Positions 123 to 10,000 of a stretch of 10,000 bases of DNA are shown piece after piece (positions within the stretch are counted from its first letter, which is position 1; each line of letters begins with the position of its first letter). The position numbers and the translations under genes are program-made. Origin of the DNA: Kiritimatiellota bacterium. Its GTDB lineage: Bacteria > Verrucomicrobiota > Kiritimatiellia > JAAZAB01. Under the pieces are notes generated by a model. It saw only the letters and a program-made list of their open reading frames with translations. It did no database searches and was not told the origin of the DNA. Where the stretch lies: contig VSJD01000314.1 in assembly GCA_008636095.1 (NCBI GenBank), forward strand, positions 1 to 10,000. Reading direction: 5' to 3'.

Positions 123-1493
123 ATGAAGATCGTTGTCCTGGCTGGAAGTCCCAAGGGTGAGATGAGCATTACCCTGCAATATGTCCGGTACATCCAGAAA
201 AAAAATCCGGCCCATTTATTCATCATTATCCAGATCGGGAACCAGATCCGGAAACTGGAAAAGGATGCCGCGGCGTTTCAGGCCGTCCTCGATGAAATCC
301 GGAGGGCCGATGCCGTTCTCTGGTGTTTCCCCGTTTATTTTTTAATGGTTCCCTCCCCGTTGAAACGGTTCATTGAGCTGGTGCTCGAACGGCACGCTGA
401 GGCGGCGTTCGCCGGAAAATATGCGACGGCTTTGACCACCTCGGTTCATTTCTACGATCATACCGCTCATAATTATATCCGGGCGATCAGCGAAGACATG
501 GGCATGCAGGCTATCCCCGGTTTCTCGGCCGACATGGAAGACCTGCTGAAGCCGGCCGGTCGGGCCGGTTTTATTTCTTTTGCCCTGAATTTCATACGGA
601 CCATTGCCGCGCAGGCGCCGGTCGAAAAAGCGTTCGCGCCTGTGAATGTTTCCATTCCGGAATACCTGTCGCCGGCGATTCCGGACGTCCCCAAGACGGG
701 GCGTCGCCGGATCGTATTGTTGACCGACGCCGGTGAGGCCGACGTCAACCTGCGCCGTATGACGGATGCCTTTGTGCGTTTCCTGCCGAATGCCGTGGAC
801 GTAGTCAATATCAACAGCTTGGACCTCAAGGGCGGATGCCTGGGATGTTGTCAGTGCGGCGACAACAACGTCTGCGTGTACCACGACGATCTGATGCCGT
901 TGTTCCGGGATAAACTCATGCCGTCCGACGCCATCGTCTTTGCCGGAAGGATCCGGGACCGCTATCTCTCCGCCCGGTGGAAAATGTTTTTCGACCGGTC
1001 GTTCTGTAATGGCCATGCTCCGGTGATGATGGGCAAACAGATGGCATGGATCGTATCCGGGGCGCTCCGGCAATTGCCAAATCTAAGGCAATTGCTGGAA
1101 GCAGAAGCCGAAATGGGCCGAATGTATCTGGCCGGTATCGTCACCGATGAAGATGCCGATTCCGTCCGGATAACGGCGCTGTTGAGGGACCTGGCAACGC
1201 GCCTCCTGCGGCATGTAGAGGAAAACACGCCGGTCCAGCCGACCTTCCTCAGCGTCGGTGGTCACAAGATTTTTCGGGACCTGATTTACGAGCTCCGGTT
1301 TGTCTTCAGGGCGGACTATCGTTTTTTTGCAAAGCACGGCATGTTCGATTACCCGCAGAAAAATATCCGGAAGCGCCTGCAAAGCGGGTTCCTCTCCCTG
1401 CTGATGGCAATCCCGGCATTCCGGCCCGCCTTCTTCCGGATGGCAAAGTCCAGGATGCTGGAGCCGTATCAGAAAATCGTTGACCAGGCATAA
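123..1493 (+). CDS. Two-domain flavodoxin-fold oxidoreductase with iron-sulfur flavoprotein motif
   Basis: This 456-residue cytosolic protein joins two flavodoxin-like (NADPH-dependent FMN reductase type) domains. Domain 1 (about 1-165) starts with the strand MKIVVLAGSP, then a phosphate-binding loop GSPKGEMS (8-15). It continues with ADAVLWCFPVYF (62-73) and PSPLKRFIE (78-86), as in FMN-binding relatives. Domain 2 (about 195-345) has only a weak loop (LLTDAGEAD) but carries cysteines 239, 242, 245 and 251, spaced C-x2-C-x2-C-x5-C, plus an extra Cys243. That spacing matches iron-sulfur flavoproteins, where it binds a 4Fe-4S cluster. The C-terminal 110 residues are basic and not recognised. 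Single-domain relatives are usually about 180-250 residues, so this is a tandem fusion. A redox role is inferred and the substrate is unknown. A terminator follows the gene. Confidence 0.85.
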   Translation: MKIVVLAGSPKGEMSITLQYVRYIQKKNPAHLFIIIQIGNQIRKLEKDAAAFQAVLDEIRRADAVLWCFPVYFLMVPSPLKRFIELVLERHAEAAFAGKYATALTTSVHFYDHTAHNYIRAISEDMGMQAIPGFSADMEDLLKPAGRAGFISFALNFIRTIAAQAPVEKAFAPVNVSIPEYLSPAIPDVPKTGRRRIVLLTDAGEADVNLRRMTDAFVRFLPNAVDVVNINSLDLKGGCLGCCQCGDNNVCVYHDDLMPLFRDKLMPSDAIVFAGRIRDRYLSARWKMFFDRSFCNGHAPVMMGKQMAWIVSGALRQLPNLRQLLEAEAEMGRMYLAGIVTDEDADSVRITALLRDLATRLLRHVEENTPVQPTFLSVGGHKIFRDLIYELRFVFRADYRFFAKHGMFDYPQKNIRKRLQSGFLSLLMAIPAFRPAFFRMAKSRMLEPYQKIVDQA

Positions 1494-1560
1494 TTTCCGT
1501 CGTTGCATTGCCCACGTTCATAACAGGTGACTATCCGCATGCCGATAAGCATCGGTCCGC

Positions 1561-1590
1561 CGCGCTGTATGCAGCGCGCCTTATTTTTTC
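1561..1590 (+). terminator. Rho-independent terminator after the flavoprotein gene
   Basis: CGCGCTG (1561-1567) pairs perfectly with CAGCGCG (1572-1578) across a TATG loop. A T-rich run, TTATTTTTT, follows at 1581-1589. The orientation terminates plus-strand transcription only; reading the other way there is no T-run. A smaller hairpin, CCGAT/ATCGG, sits just upstream at 1542-1555. The rest of the 132-bp convergent spacer holds nothing recognisable. Confidence 0.8.
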
Positions 1591-1625
1591 ACGAGCGCGC
1601 ATTGTGTCCGGAGGTCGAGCGTCGG

Positions 1626-3107
1626 TCATGGAGACGGGGCCGGGGTGGTGTGGAGGGTCCAAACGCGGCGGTTGACGGTGGCGAGACGTTCGACTAGGGG
1701 GAGGTAAGGTTCATCCTGAATATTGACGAGGCCATAGTTGCCGTTCTCGCCGTCAAAGCGTCCGCCTTTGGGCTCGTCCATGTATTCGAACCAGTGATAG
1801 CCGAGGAAGTAGGGCTGGGTGATCCAGGTATTGACGCAGTGCTCGAATTTGTCGGCGCGGGCCATTTGGTTCGGGACCGTGGGCTGGATGAAGAGGGGTG
1901 GCGGGTAGGTATTAGGCATGCCGCTGTCCATGGCTCGGAAGCTGAACTCTGTGATGAGCAGCGGCTTCTGGGCAAGATCATAGAACGGGCGGAACGTCAG
2001 ATCAGTGCGTACGCGCATGGAGGTCGTCAGCCACAGTGCCAGTTTGCCGAGCACGCCCGCCTCATAGTAGTTGATTGAAATCACGTCGCAATACTTGCCG
2101 CAGGCCTGCACAACCGGCCATGGGGCAATGGCCCAGAAGAACCGGCAGCCTAGGATCAGATGGTGGGGGTCTTTAGCGCGAATTGCCTCGGTAGCCGTCT
2201 TGAAATACTCGCGGGCTACGAGGAGAACGAAGGCCTCGCGGTCCCGCCGCGCTTGGACCGGCCTCCGGGAGATCAGTTTTTGCCGCACAGCCAGGTCATT
2301 CCAATCTTTCAGGTTCGCGAACCATATGGCGTTGAACCTGTTTACGGTCTGGTAGCGTTCTTTGAAGAACTCGACGAGCCGTTGCTTGCCGGGTGCTTCG
2401 GGCGGGAGCGCCATGTATCCGGGGAAAAGGTCGGAGCCGAGCCGCCAGTCTTTGGCCCAGGGCAGTTCGTTGTCCAGGTAGTATCCGATGAGGTAGGGAT
2501 CGTTGGCGGTGGCCTCGGCGGCGGCGGCGCGGTCCCGGATATGTGCCTGAACCTCCGGGCTGAAGAAGTCAGGGACTGTCTTTTGGCCCCTTAACCCACC
2601 AGCTCCCAACTGGCCCCATAGTCCGCCGGATACCGACAGTTCTTTCGTGTAAGGAAAGGTATCGCATAATTCGCTGCCAGACCAGTTGCCCAGCGTATTA
2701 AGACCCCATGTGCGGAGCCGGTTGGCCGTAACCGTTGTCCAGGCCTCGACCGACCCATACTTGGCCAGCACGTTCTCGCGATAGGGCTGGCGGTTCGTAT
2801 CTCGTTCCGTATCGCCGGTCGGATTGACCACGCAAACTCCTATCGACAGGAATGCGCCGCCATCAGGTGTAACGAGCCACCAACGTCGGCCGTCATAATG
2901 CGTGCGGAATGCCGGGCCCGGTCCGAACGACAGTTTCTTCAGGCCGCCAAAGCGATCCAGCACCAGAGGCTCTTCAGCGTAACTCACCAGGCTGAGCGCG
3001 AGACTCACGAGTAGCGTGGCCAGAATGACTATTTGACTGGGAAGCAATCTCTTTTCTGCTGGTAAGGGCACCTGCCCCCCGGCATCAGTCTGAAAAAGCT
3101 TGTGCAT
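1626..3107 (-). CDS. Exported glycoside-hydrolase-like protein (clan GH-A type, agarase-like)
   Basis: From the ATG at 3107 the product is 493 residues. Residues 23-44 form a hydrophobic signal sequence after a basic Lys-Arg, with likely cleavage after VSYA (44). The mature part begins with a short domain containing WWLVTPDGGAFLSIGV (76-91), a pattern seen in agarase-like TIM-barrel glycosidases. GYYLDNELPW (208-217) supplies the expected acid/base Glu214. KPLLITEFSF (381-390) supplies a candidate nucleophile, Glu387. GYHWFEYMDEP (436-446) fits the end of the barrel. The likely role is retaining hydrolysis of a polysaccharide outside the cytoplasm. The exact GH family and substrate cannot be set by eye; it most resembles proteins annotated as beta-agarase-like. 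An in-frame GTG at 3206, three bases after the upstream stop, would add 33 residues, but I prefer 3107 because it gives the shorter signal peptide. Confidence 0.82.
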   Translation of the reverse strand: MHKLFQTDAGGQVPLPAEKRLLPSQIVILATLLVSLALSLVSYAEEPLVLDRFGGLKKLSFGPGPAFRTHYDGRRWWLVTPDGGAFLSIGVCVVNPTGDTERDTNRQPYRENVLAKYGSVEAWTTVTANRLRTWGLNTLGNWSGSELCDTFPYTKELSVSGGLWGQLGAGGLRGQKTVPDFFSPEVQAHIRDRAAAAEATANDPYLIGYYLDNELPWAKDWRLGSDLFPGYMALPPEAPGKQRLVEFFKERYQTVNRFNAIWFANLKDWNDLAVRQKLISRRPVQARRDREAFVLLVAREYFKTATEAIRAKDPHHLILGCRFFWAIAPWPVVQACGKYCDVISINYYEAGVLGKLALWLTTSMRVRTDLTFRPFYDLAQKPLLITEFSFRAMDSGMPNTYPPPLFIQPTVPNQMARADKFEHCVNTWITQPYFLGYHWFEYMDEPKGGRFDGENGNYGLVNIQDEPYLPLVERLATVNRRVWTLHTTPAPSP

Positions 3108-3209
3108 AATGTGTGGTGATAATATCCCAGACGGGGGCAGGGATATCAAGCGGGAAGGATCATTAGAGATAATAAAATATGTGCTTAAAGGATTTAAGAA
3201 ATCCACCGT

Positions 3210-7481: not shown

Positions 7482-8225
7482 TTACTGCGCGGAATCCGCG
7501 GCAACGGTTGGGCGGTAAAGCCGGTCGTTAATTTCCTCAAGGTCGCTGAAGCCGTCTCCATCTGAATCCACGCGGAGCGGATTGGTCTTCCAGGTGTGGA
7601 TCTCCTCGTAATCGGAAATACCGTCGCCATCCGTGTCGGTTGCCACCGTCACCCGCACCTTCAGTTCTCCGCTCATGCCTGAAGACAGGGAAAAATTGTT
7701 GCGGAACTTCAGCTCGCCGGAACCGCCCGCCACCACATTGGTCTCCTGGCCGATGAAGTAGACCATGTTTGTATCGTTCCCGATCCGCATCAGGAGTCCG
7801 CAGGCCGGCGCACTGACGCCCAGATGGTTTTTCATGATCTCCGGGTTGCCTGCCGCTCCATATTTGGCAAAGGAATCGCTCCATTGGCCGGTGGCGACAC
7901 AATGAATGATGTTGCTATAGTTGACGGATATCCTGCTGGGTTGCCAAAGTTGGTTGGCCTGCACGGTGACCAGGTGCTCTTCCGGTCGGTCCGGATTCGC
8001 CTGGGGCGTCGTGCAACCGGCGATGGCCAACCCCAGCAAGAGACAGAAGCAAATACCCTCTCCCTGGGGAGAGGGCAGGGTGAGGGGTTGCTGCTGGCGA
8101 CGGCCCCTCACCCGATCCCGTAACGCGGGATTGACCTCTCCCGAGGGAGAGGTAATAGAATTGCCCCTGCCGAGGGCGACAAATCGCCGAATCAGTGAAT
8201 CAATGAATCGGTAAATACCCATCAT
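7482..8225 (-). CDS. Lipoprotein with LecA-like lectin domain and two calcium-loop repeats
   Basis: The 247-residue frame starts with an ATG overlapping the serC stop (ATGA). Residues 58-71 contain a hydrophobic core and lipobox, LAIAGC, with Cys71. Residues 85-195 resemble the PA-I galactophilic lectin (LecA) fold: W..SRISV near 94-101, ATGQWS (111-116), a YGAAGNPE stretch, CGLLMRIGN (142-150), then a GSGELKF strand and a final GELKVRVTV strand. DTDGDGISDYEE (197-208) and DSDGDGFSDLEE (220-231) are calcium-binding loops like thrombospondin type 3 repeats. The likely role is a surface sugar-binding protein; the lectin match is by eye and moderate. The lipobox is unusually far from the start because a 98-bp palindromic element interrupts the signal-peptide region (residues 25-58). 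Without it the cysteine would be residue 37. Export may be impaired, or translation may start elsewhere. Confidence 0.78.
   Translation of the reverse strand: MMGIYRFIDSLIRRFVALGRGNSITSPSGEVNPALRDRVRGRRQQQPLTLPSPQGEGICFCLLLGLAIAGCTTPQANPDRPEEHLVTVQANQLWQPSRISVNYSNIIHCVATGQWSDSFAKYGAAGNPEIMKNHLGVSAPACGLLMRIGNDTNMVYFIGQETNVVAGGSGELKFRNNFSLSSGMSGELKVRVTVATDTDGDGISDYEEIHTWKTNPLRVDSDGDGFSDLEEINDRLYRPTVAADSAQ
8056..8153. mobile_element. 98-bp palindromic (REP/MITE-like) element inside a coding sequence
   Basis: Three hairpins lie in a row, with a longer stem between the first and second. They are CCCTCTCCC/GGGAGAGGG (8056-8075), a 10-bp stem GGGTGAGGGG (8078-8087) with CCCCTCACCC (8104-8113), ATCCCG/CGGGAT (8115-8131), and ACCTCTCCC/GGGAGAGGT (8134-8153). 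The two ends are inverted repeats of each other with one mismatch in nine. AATA flanks both sides (8052-8055 and 8154-8157), as a target duplication would. No transposase is present, so any movement would need one in trans. The same CCCTCTCCC/GGGAGAGGG type of palindrome is common as an intergenic repeat in many bacteria. Confidence 0.75.
8181..8209. repeat. Short 8-bp-period tandem repeat (GATTCxxx)
   Basis: Read on the minus strand, GATTC recurs three times exactly eight bases apart (plus coordinates 8205-8209, 8197-8201 and 8189-8193), with a fourth partial GATTT copy at 8181-8185. It lies in the first 15 codons of the lectin-like gene, just after the serC stop, and encodes RFIDSLIRRF. Confidence 0.55.
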
Positions 8226-9286
8226 CCGTTCTTCTTTTCAAATTCCTTCATGAACGCTACCAGTGCTTCGATGCCTTCCACGGGGCAGGCGTTGTAAATC
8301 GAAGCCCGAATGCCGCCCACGGAACGATGTCCTTTCAGGCCTTTCAGTCCCTGCTTGGATGCTTCCTTAATGAACGTTTCTTCCAGCGTTTCATTGGGCA
8401 ACCGGAAGGTGATATTCATGTCGGAGCGGCATTCAGGCCGGGCCGTTCCCTTGTAAAAGCCGCCGGCATCCAGCAGGGCATAGATCAGGCCGGCCTTGTC
8501 CGCGTTTTGACGATGCAATGGGCCCAAGCCCTTTTTCAGGATCCAGCGCGAAACCAGCATCATGATATAAATACTGAAACAGGGCGGGGTATTGTAAAGC
8601 GAATTTTCCTCAATAAATGTTTTATAGCGCAAAATGGTCGGCACTGTGGGCGCGGCCCGTTCGGCCAGATCCTTGCGGATCACCACCAGGGCTATGCCGG
8701 AAGGCCCCAGGTTCTTCTGGGCGCCGGCATAGACCAGTCCGAATTGATTAATGTCAAAAGGACGCGAGAGGATGTCCGACGACATATCCGCCACGAGCGG
8801 CGCTTCGGTTTCAGGGAATGTTTTCCATTGTGCGCCGGAAATCGTTTCATTCGATGTCAGGTGAACATAGGCAGCGCCGGGGGTCAGTTTGAGTTCAGCT
8901 GCCGTGGGGATTTCCTTGCCGCAATCGGCGGCGATGTGTACCTGGCCGATATGGGCGGCTTCCTTGATTGCCTTGCCGGCCCAGGCGCCGGAATTGATAT
9001 AATCGGCTGTCTGGCCCGCGCCCAGTAAATTCAGGGGTACCATGGCAAACTGCATACTGGCGCCGCCAGCCACAAATAGCACGGCATAATCATCGGAACA
9101 GCCCAGCAATTGCTTGTAGTTGGCCACAGCCTCGGCATGCACCGCGTCATATTCCTTGCCGCGGTGACTGCTCTCCAGGATGGACATGCCCGAGCCTTTG
9201 AAATCCAGCAATTCGCGTTGGGCTTCCTGCAGGACTTCCCGTGGCAAAACAGCTGGACCGGCATTGAAATTGTAGACACGCGACAT
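8222..9286 (-). CDS. serC: Phosphoserine aminotransferase
   Basis: SerC transfers an amino group from glutamate to 3-phosphohydroxypyruvate, the second step of serine synthesis from 3-phosphoglycerate, in the cytoplasm with PLP. In many bacteria it also acts in vitamin B6 synthesis. The 354-residue length is normal for the family. Diagnostic segments are YNFNAGPAVLP at the N-terminus, SGMSILESSHRGKEY (32-46), FVAGGASMQFAMVPLN, the ADMSSDILSRP stretch (Asp binds the pyridine nitrogen) and YAGAQKNLGPSG with the PLP lysine at Lys191. The C-terminal GHRSVGGIRASIYNA is also typical. AAGGAGG five bases before the ATG gives strong initiation. The stop overlaps the start of the lectin-like gene by four bases. 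The 98-bp gap upstream, to the HEPN gene, contains heptamer repeats. Confidence 0.96.
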   Translation of the reverse strand: MSRVYNFNAGPAVLPREVLQEAQRELLDFKGSGMSILESSHRGKEYDAVHAEAVANYKQLLGCSDDYAVLFVAGGASMQFAMVPLNLLGAGQTADYINSGAWAGKAIKEAAHIGQVHIAADCGKEIPTAAELKLTPGAAYVHLTSNETISGAQWKTFPETEAPLVADMSSDILSRPFDINQFGLVYAGAQKNLGPSGIALVVIRKDLAERAAPTVPTILRYKTFIEENSLYNTPPCFSIYIMMLVSRWILKKGLGPLHRQNADKAGLIYALLDAGGFYKGTARPECRSDMNITFRLPNETLEETFIKEASKQGLKGLKGHRSVGGIRASIYNACPVEGIEALVAFMKEFEKKNG

Positions 9287-9384: not shown

Positions 9385-9786
9385 CTATGCGCGTCGTTCT
9401 TGTCGTGGAATCTTCAGCGCCTGGCGGATATGTTCCCGGAACGCTCTGCATCGTCTGATGGCATCCTTGGCCTGGTCGCGCGTTGCCGACTCGCCAGGAT
9501 ACCGGAAAACCACGGCAAAATCGGACAAGTAAGCCAAATCACGGCGAAAAACTTCCCACAGAGGCTCTCGCGGAACAATTAAATCGAGAAGGGCCGGAAG
9601 ATCGTGAGTGTTTCTAAACTCGATGGCGGACTCGCTCAACCGAGCCTTGAGATATTTTTCGGCGCATTGCTGCGCGTGGAAACATATCCCGTCATAGTTG
9701 GGCTGTTTGCGGGCGCGCCCTTCCCGTTCCATCATTGCGAAGTCGCCCTCGGCTTTTTCAATCCATTCACGCGTGATCGGCTTCAT
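9385..9786 (-). CDS. HEPN-domain protein, partner of the adjacent nucleotidyltransferase
   Basis: The 133-residue product is an all-helical HEPN protein. YDGICFHAQQCAEKYLKA (31-48) is the family's core helix, NTHDLPALLDL (59-69) the conserved HDL turn, and FRYPGE (94-99) the conserved YP element. An R-x4-H arrangement, RAFREH (114-119), lies near the C-terminus. In HEPN ribonuclease toxins an R-x4-6-H motif is the active site, but whether this copy is the equivalent needs alignment. The gene begins inside the 3' end of the nucleotidyltransferase gene (20-base overlap), the arrangement of MNT-HEPN toxin-antitoxin pairs, in which the MNT partner can AMPylate and silence HEPN. If active it would cut RNA; if not, it may be a cofactor of the nucleotidyltransferase. 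Confidence 0.88.
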   Translation of the reverse strand: MKPITREWIEKAEGDFAMMEREGRARKQPNYDGICFHAQQCAEKYLKARLSESAIEFRNTHDLPALLDLIVPREPLWEVFRRDLAYLSDFAVVFRYPGESATRDQAKDAIRRCRAFREHIRQALKIPRQERRA

Positions 9787-10000
9787 AAATGACCTTCCCT
9801 CGCGCTAAAATAGAACGGACAAACTGGTCGCCCATGCTCAGGCGCTTGCGGATGGCTTGCGGTGTACGGACCAGCAAATCCACCGGGAACGGAGGATGGA
9901 TCTGCATGCGGATTTCGACCGACTGATCAACCGGCGATCCTTTGAACGGCATCACGACAAGCAAATCCACGTCCGAATCCGGCGTGACATGGCCTTCGGC
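9767..10000 (-). CDS. Minimal nucleotidyltransferase (MNT), 5' end outside window
   Basis: The 3' part of a nucleotidyltransferase gene, open to the window edge. The visible protein starts AEGHVTPDSDVDLLVVM, which is the catalytic part of the Pol beta-type fold. Its two aspartates, in SDVDLL, bind the metal. The Gly-Ser that normally precedes this segment should lie just outside. A third acidic strand, PVDLLVRTPQAI, follows, as is usual in MNT proteins. The C-terminus is ISxxGKVIYE-like (LARGKVIYEADHA). Only 77 codons are seen; the family is usually around 100 residues, so about 20-30 are missing. An internal GTG at 9970 is within the catalytic motif and cannot be the true start. The protein is expected to act with the HEPN product encoded by the overlapping gene. 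Confidence 0.88.
   Translation of the reverse strand, partial: AEGHVTPDSDVDLLVVMPFKGSPVDQSVEIRMQIHPPFPVDLLVRTPQAIRKRLSMGDQFVRSILARGKVIYEADHA

Follow-up and report, generated by a model that had tools for sequence, protein, structure and literature searches.

A palindrome resembling an inverted pair of intrastrand-triplex motifs in the predicted signal-peptide region of a Kiritimatiellota lipoprotein gene

The lipoprotein gene and the palindrome within it

The window, i.e. the whole stretch of 10,000 nucleotides analysed here, contains an open reading frame of 247 amino acids (7482..8225, minus strand) which is predicted to encode a lipoprotein. A lipobox-like IAGC can be read at residues 68-71 (8013-8024, minus strand), and a domain search found a TSP3_bac repeat at residues 197-217. 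The upstream gene (8222..9286, minus strand) has an Aminotran_5 domain and was taken as serC; its stop codon overlaps the ATG of the lipoprotein frame (ATGA). The neighbourhood of these two genes is kept in the relatives that were read, and orthologues of the lipoprotein occur in named records of Kiritimatiellaeota, Kiritimatiellae and Lentisphaerae MAGs. The window also encodes, at 9385-9970 (minus strand), a HEPN-domain ORF beside a short upstream ORF which by eye is minimal-nucleotidyltransferase-like, and the two form a possible HEPN/MNT toxin-antitoxin pair.

Within the lipoprotein frame lies a palindromic unit of 98 bp (CCCTCTCCC...GGGAGAGGT, 8056-8153), which accounts for residues 25-57. 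An earlier sequence-only reading of this DNA had described this palindrome with AATA on both sides, and had noted that the frame 7482-8225 (minus strand) stays open across it and that the lipobox-like IAGC ends at residue 71. All of this was confirmed. The two AATA are read directly at 8052..8055 and 8154..8157, and in a repeat search of the window 8057-8077 pairs with 8132-8152 (21 nt, 90% complementarity). The DNA fold of the 98-bp single strand has -41.5 kcal/mol (z -9.07) and the RNA fold of the minus strand -66.3 (z -7.18). Both are far beyond chance, since none of 200 shuffles was as good in either case.

Each of the terminal "inverted repeats" is itself a hairpin (CCTCTCCC/GGGAGAGG), one per end, and the unit can be divided into two halves. 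The first half (8056..8087, plus strand) reads CCCTCTCCC-TG-GGGAGAGGG-CA-GGGTGAGGG-G and thus ends in GGGTGAGGGG. Its arms occupy 8056-8064, 8067-8075 and 8078-8086, with nine of nine Watson-Crick pairs and a third arm of nine positions; with the short loops between them, they could give Watson-Crick and reverse-Hoogsteen triads. The second half (8104..8153, minus strand) is inverted and fits the triplex motif loosely: CCTCTCCC-TC-GGGAGAGG is followed by a second loop of 21 nt and again by GGGTGAGGGG. According to the DNA fold this loop holds a hairpin, GATCCCGTAACGCGGGATT (8114..8132), whose size differs among copies. The central spacer of 16 nt (8088..8103) is variable across the 13 aligned copies described below.

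The 98-bp element is open in three of six frames, the mean of its shuffles being 3.09, and 701 of 1000 shuffles were at least as open, which does not point to selection for codability. A small home-made codon score gives the palindrome -0.09 per codon (slightly non-coding), the leader in front of it 0.15 and the rest of the gene 0.25. Between the leaders of the window genome (G000) and the genus-mate G003, 12 of 63 nucleotides are substituted, two, five and five of them at codon positions 1, 2 and 3, which is not a coding pattern.

Relatives of the palindrome

As judged from its arms, the 98-bp unit is not a new element: it consists of two inverted copies of a known intrastrand-triplex motif (PIT/TM). 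To call it unrelated to known elements would be too strong, as these arms are the published motif. TM_ECO, as described by Holder et al. (2015, PMC4666352), has the arms CCCTCTCCC/GGGAGAGGG/GGGTGAGGG joined by short loops and is one of the PIT-type sequences of earlier work (Hoyne et al. 2000, cited in PMC4666352). Table 1 of PMC4666352 gives 23 TM copies for E. coli MG1655, ten of them as five inverted pairs, whose coordinates correspond to lengths of 85, 98, 99, 100 and 129 bp. The window unit has the same three arms, and three of the five E. coli cases are, like it, convergent inverted pairs of 98-100 bp. Two differences are seen. One half of the window unit has a 21-nt loop bearing a hairpin, whereas the search described in PMC4666352 took loops of 1-6 nt. 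In addition, the window copy is placed within an ORF, and section 18 of that paper states of the E. coli motif that it is "always located intergenically". The window form can therefore be described, from its sequence, as a Kiritimatiellota variant with a hairpin in one loop and in an unusual place.

A blastn search of E. coli with the 98 bp gave only partial matches, in 19 of 5426 genomes. The exact half-motif was found in 10 of 288 sampled genomes of the phylum, all belonging to one class, and its reversed control in none. In a set of 38 genomes, blastn revealed places in seven, many of which are half-motifs: three in the window genome, four each in G001 and G004, at least 13 in G003 (from 23 of 31 first-look candidates scored), two in G018, at least two in G034 (from 23 of 34) and one in G021. 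No blastn place was found in G002. Related places are thus present in four of the five genomes of the genus, the window genome and three of its four genus-mates (4, 13 and 4), which supports the view that the palindrome is dispersed.

The intergenic habit, from which the window copy departs, is kept by 10 of the 12 other full-length copies, which overlap no coding-like ORF by a test with a codon table derived from five ORFs of the window and with a cut-off set for this analysis. L065 overlaps such an ORF by two bases and the copy at L070 lies in the 5' part of one. The latter (1452-3106, plus strand, in G003) is an exported-looking ORF with 551 amino acids in the stretch. Its triplex palindrome (1501-1606) is situated in the N-terminal part just before a hydrophobic signal-like stretch, and the ORF may start later.

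The Rfam family whalefall-1 (RF01762) matches the minus-strand half of the window unit (8104-8155, minus strand) with 28.4 bits and the plus-strand half with 21.1 bits, both short of the curated cut-off (37 bits). The consensus of this family can be read as a single triplex half whose second loop carries a hairpin, i.e. as one half of the window palindrome, and the same can be seen at L047 (1546-1597, minus strand). A scan of 38 genomes with at most 109 candidates per genome gave at least 14 matches, spread over 6 genomes, and the 14 control genomes had none; those above the cut-off are two loci, one each in G001 and G003. Twelve of the 14 matches coincide with blastn places, and G002:C15 and G018:C158 show the same motif by eye. 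Rfam and PMC2864571, in contrast, treat whalefall-1 as a structured RNA; the latter lists it as certainly RNA and as known only from whalefall sequence, and the window copy stays below the cut-off. Our comparison suggests that this "RNA" family may be half of a DNA repeat.

Similarities to other repeat families are more distant. Rickettsia palindromic elements are likewise palindromic repeats in frame within genes (PMC3733652), whereas the window palindrome is situated in a signal peptide expected to be cleaved off. The frame is retained in the window protein and in the orthologue P0002, and both inserts may be translated. REP/REPIN, BIME and GTAG- or CGTC-tagged repeats share with our family the short hairpins, the inverted pairs and a dispersed, mostly intergenic distribution (PMC3733652). 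According to the same source some REPs are located in ORF 5' ends, and some REP dimers, each of one family, lie within conserved longer palindromes, in A. variabilis among others. Inspection of the hairpin foot in 8056-8153 by eye revealed neither a GTAG nor a CGTC tag, and in the genomes studied here, unlike in these families, one shell holds many different cores. The Y1 tyrosine transposase (PF01797) has four matches in the window genome and occurs in 8 of 10 genomes, but also in 5 of 14 control genomes. Neisserial intergenic mosaic elements consist of constant short repeats around exchangeable cores. They resemble our family in this architecture, and differ in that our shell is asymmetric and comes from a different phylum.

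In many of the 12 other full copies the palindrome is enclosed by two conserved ends, the left end resembling TTCAATGCATAGGAATTTCAA and the right end GAAACAGTTGCCG..GGCCTAATTC. A constant asymmetric shell (left ATGCATAGGAATTTCAA, right AGTTGCCG..GGCCTAAT) surrounds nine named unrelated core kinds at L047, L124, L126, L133, L142, L149 and other loci. When up to three mismatches are allowed, 9 of 12 genomes contain the left end, with 101 matches in all (reversed control 0); 100 of these are in the bacterial family of the window organism and one is outside it in G010. At one mismatch it is found in 3 of the 288 phylum genomes, all of that family. The right-end pattern has 27 matches in 6 of 12 genomes (control 1), and it follows within 240 nt at 16 of 29 left-anchored loci, two of which end at a contig edge, as compared to random stretches, in which this was the case for 184 of 3000. 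Among loci chosen for carrying a part, a lenient scan revealed 40 left-core-right units with the nine named palindromic core kinds: GGTTCTA (7), the triplex pair (6), GTAGGGC (6), GTAGGAG (4), GTAGCCG (3), GTAGGGGC (3), GTCATTCCGAG (3), TTCCCG..CGGGAATGACA (3) and GTAGAGCC (1), the remaining four being other cores. In this count L143 and L133 give two overlapping readings each, and at least one of the "other" cores looks false.

We do not claim the shell for the window copy, because its right flank fits weakly and its left flank not at all. For the right flank 93 and 139 of 1500 random stretches were as good in unanchored comparisons, and 87 and 151 of 4000 in anchored ones; for the left flank this number was 1347 of 1500. 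Between a gmk-like and a coaBC-like gene (names by eye) the shell with a triplex core is present in G003 and absent from G000, G002 and G004. In these three genomes (L151, L153 and L152, respectively) the gmk-like frame ends in a low-complexity repeat of the AACGCTCAACG type, where G003 has shell and palindrome. The possibility that the shell is an integron attC site was discarded by eye. In the open-access literature, searched with limited terms, no report of one shell with many cores was found.

Orthologues and the origin of the insert

A protein search yielded 81 homologues, of which P0001-P0062 are orthologue-like by length and score. Nine of them with the leader of the window protein (type 1) were aligned: P0007, P0009, P0011, P0016, P0024, P0025, P0014, P0044 and P0051. 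All nine lack residues 23-62, i.e. a segment of 120 bp or 40 codons (8040..8159, minus strand), and retain an IYRFIDS-like leader with the cysteine at 30-31; three of them also lack residue 1. Text rules count ten such insert-free proteins, and P0027, which has other extra sequence, was left out of the alignment. The starts of these orthologues are gene predictions, and the DNA was read for G003 among the nine. The in-frame insertion proposed earlier is thus upheld by nine of nine same-leader orthologues, while its proposed size of 34 codons has to be replaced by 40 (residues 23-62). The existence of these proteins also means that the segment is not common to all orthologues; its presence in all of them would have spoken against the earlier proposal.

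By the same text rules, 2 of the 62 orthologue-like proteins carry the insert, the window protein (P0001) and P0002, and one carries a remnant. P0002 is 86% identical to the window protein (insert 31/33, leader 19/24, core 12/13, mature part 140/166). Given these differences, the frame was either maintained through real divergence or passed from one lineage to another. The remnant is found in P0035 of G001, where APQGEE (CTCCCCAGGGAGAGG in the DNA) precedes ICFCLLL at the same junction, and a second half-copy lies just upstream. At this lipoprotein start (L089, about 3000-3160) a similar stretch, ATCTG..CCTCCTGCTGG, comes behind each of two degenerate half-palindromes, which looks like a tandem duplication of half-palindrome and gene start. 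Among the other genus-mates, the type-1 leader is present in G003, where the palindrome is lacking; in G002 and G004 the leader is another one.

Lipoprotein signal peptides comprise a basic n-region, a hydrophobic core and a lipobox, and are removed before the conserved cysteine. The explanation that we prefer, with moderate confidence, is that a dispersed PIT/TM inverted pair was captured in such a signal peptide, as part of an in-frame segment of 120 bp that separates the n-region from the hydrophobic core, and that the mature lipoprotein is unchanged. We infer that the insert-bearing precursor is translated and exported. Translation would begin at the ATG overlapping the stop of the upstream gene, and the insert would extend the n-region by a basic linker rich in Pro, Gly and Gln. 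Behind the insert, the core CFCLLLGLAIAG and the lipobox are intact and could still direct export, and signal peptidase II would discard the insert together with the signal peptide. With an unchanged mature lipoprotein the repeat would be tolerated by selection, because only the n-region is lengthened and the insert, if translated, never forms part of the mature protein. A palindrome in this place therefore probably does little harm.

The main alternative, which we regard as unlikely, is that the palindrome is really extragenic or 5'-untranslated. Translation would then start at an in-frame GTG inside the palindrome (8109..8111, minus strand, read from 8111 to 8109), and the last part of the palindrome would give the n-region (MRGRRQQQPLTLPSPQGEG...). 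This start would place the cysteine at 33, as in many orthologues, and the upstream ATG overlaps the stop of the preceding gene and may thus be fortuitous. In G004 the frame that an ATG at the same place would open is closed after six codons, the start predicted in G001 is downstream of one repeat copy and beside the remnant, and many REPs at ORF N-termini may be extragenic according to section 15 of PMC3733652. However, for all ten insert-free orthologues of this leader type the gene-caller chose a start within the leader, although in individual cases the true start may lie further downstream, and P0002 has leader, insert and core all in one frame.

We consider it rather improbable that the 5' end is a product of recombination or assembly, in which a type-1 leader was joined via the repeat to the core of another orthologue with no insertion event. 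The hydrophobic core of the window protein, CFCLLLGLAIAGC, is unlike that of all nine aligned same-leader orthologues (e.g. TAGVLGLAIAGC) and is common to orthologues bearing another leader; recombination could therefore have built the junction. On a tree of the mature domain, drawn from 23 hand-picked proteins of the 62 and poorly resolved (2 of 20 inner branches starred), P0002 groups at 100/99 with the insert-free P0007 and not with the window protein. P0002 and P0007 share the mature part (3 of 165 positions differ) and not the leader, as 10 of 30 aligned signal-peptide positions and the insert differ, and both come from contigs of less than 1.4 kb. Near-identical mature parts, insert carriers that are not sisters and short contigs make exchange or assembly chimerism possible. 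Furthermore, the leader kind does not cluster on this tree: 12 changes are needed, the shuffled mean is 11.9, and 143 of 200 shuffles were as low. Against this explanation, the join is present in two sequence clusters, those of P0001 (2 member sequences) and P0002 (5), and the remnant is present in G001 as well. An old insertion at the junction with later losses would fit too; a SerC tree (8 rows, G002 left out) pairs G000 with G004 at 87/91 and does not resolve G001 and G003.

The sequence-only reading had proposed a MITE-like element that transposed with a 4-bp duplication of AATA, which now appears very improbable. AATA on both sides, the inverted ends and related copies in the genus would agree with it. 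Thirteen full-length copies, including that of the window, were aligned with their flanks. None of the 12 other copies is duplicated at the boundary matching the window AATA, a result which that reading had itself named as contrary to it, and AATA is therefore probably no target-site duplication. If the boundaries are slid, one copy (L049) gives AATA; left and right flanks paired across different copies reach four or more in 10 of 156 pairs. In addition, AATA occurs in the first seven right-flank bases of 5 of the 12 copies (L053, L049, L054, L069 and L059), so that an AT-rich 4-mer at the right flank looks like family sequence. The predicted empty site with a single AATA was not seen in any orthologue examined, and the same-leader orthologues are shorter by 120 bp, not 102. 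Terminal inverted repeats are thus present, as in MITEs, whereas end duplications in independent copies are absent, and this analysis gave no sign of a 4-bp-duplicating transposase. After this test on 13 full copies the target-site duplication was rejected. It is hardly credible, finally, that the segment is kept because it forms a regulatory mRNA structure between the two genes, be it a stabiliser, an attenuator or a coupling block: in spite of the very stable RNA fold and of an E. coli motif that is commoner upstream of ORFs than downstream (PMC4666352, section 18), that section gives no hint of a general regulatory role, and only 2 of the 62 orthologue-like proteins carry the insert and one a remnant by text rules.

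Exchangeable leaders and their meaning

The leaders of the 62 orthologue-like proteins are of at least four kinds. Text rules assign 10 to type 1 without insert, 2 to type 1 with insert, 15 to an RLFN/RSTL-like, 5 to an NGKTGK/FTVS-like and 4 to a KAQRRKA/FAPLRLC-like kind, one each to the palindrome remnant and to another PNPSQEG-like sequence, and leave 24 unclassified; some proteins are misplaced by these rules, and P0006 and P0019 look by eye like types 2 and 3. Inspection of the N-termini of P0003-P0050 likewise revealed several unrelated leader types ahead of a conserved mature domain. Either signal peptides are often exchanged or replaced in this family, or assemblies of short contigs mislead.

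The evidence that the leaders themselves are dispersed repeats is thin in a search that covered types 1 and 2. For type 1 (8155-8225) the result speaks against the idea, as in 10 genomes nothing else matched besides the G003 orthologue. The type-2 leader (L088) has four extra places of about 30 nt beyond its own locus and the G002 orthologue, with weak E values of 0.001-0.007. The distant orthologue P0061 starts with MTQPTPNPSQEGSL (residues 1-16), which we take to resemble the translation of another C-rich repeat.

Tentatively, and with some doubt on our side, the signal-peptide region might be a recurrent landing and exchange pad. Repeats would be captured there repeatedly as signal-peptide sequence and cut off before the mature protein works, and selection would see only charge, hydrophobic core and lipobox. 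The cases in point are the triplex pair in the window protein and P0002, the remnant in G001 and other repeat-like leaders elsewhere. If this holds true, signal peptides would be a safe harbour for dispersed palindromic DNA and would partly be made of it.

If the insert is translated, it would be a natural case of a structured, instability-associated repeat which is tolerated inside a gene on account of its position in a part of the protein that is later removed. This would offer a testable rule for the survival of repeats in coding DNA, namely in export signals. The Rfam "RNA" family that looks like half of a DNA repeat is a further point of interest. The shell with its many cores and the variable lipoprotein leader may matter more than the insert in the window. 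The presence of many unrelated palindromes in one shell within one bacterial family bears on the spread of REP-like elements.
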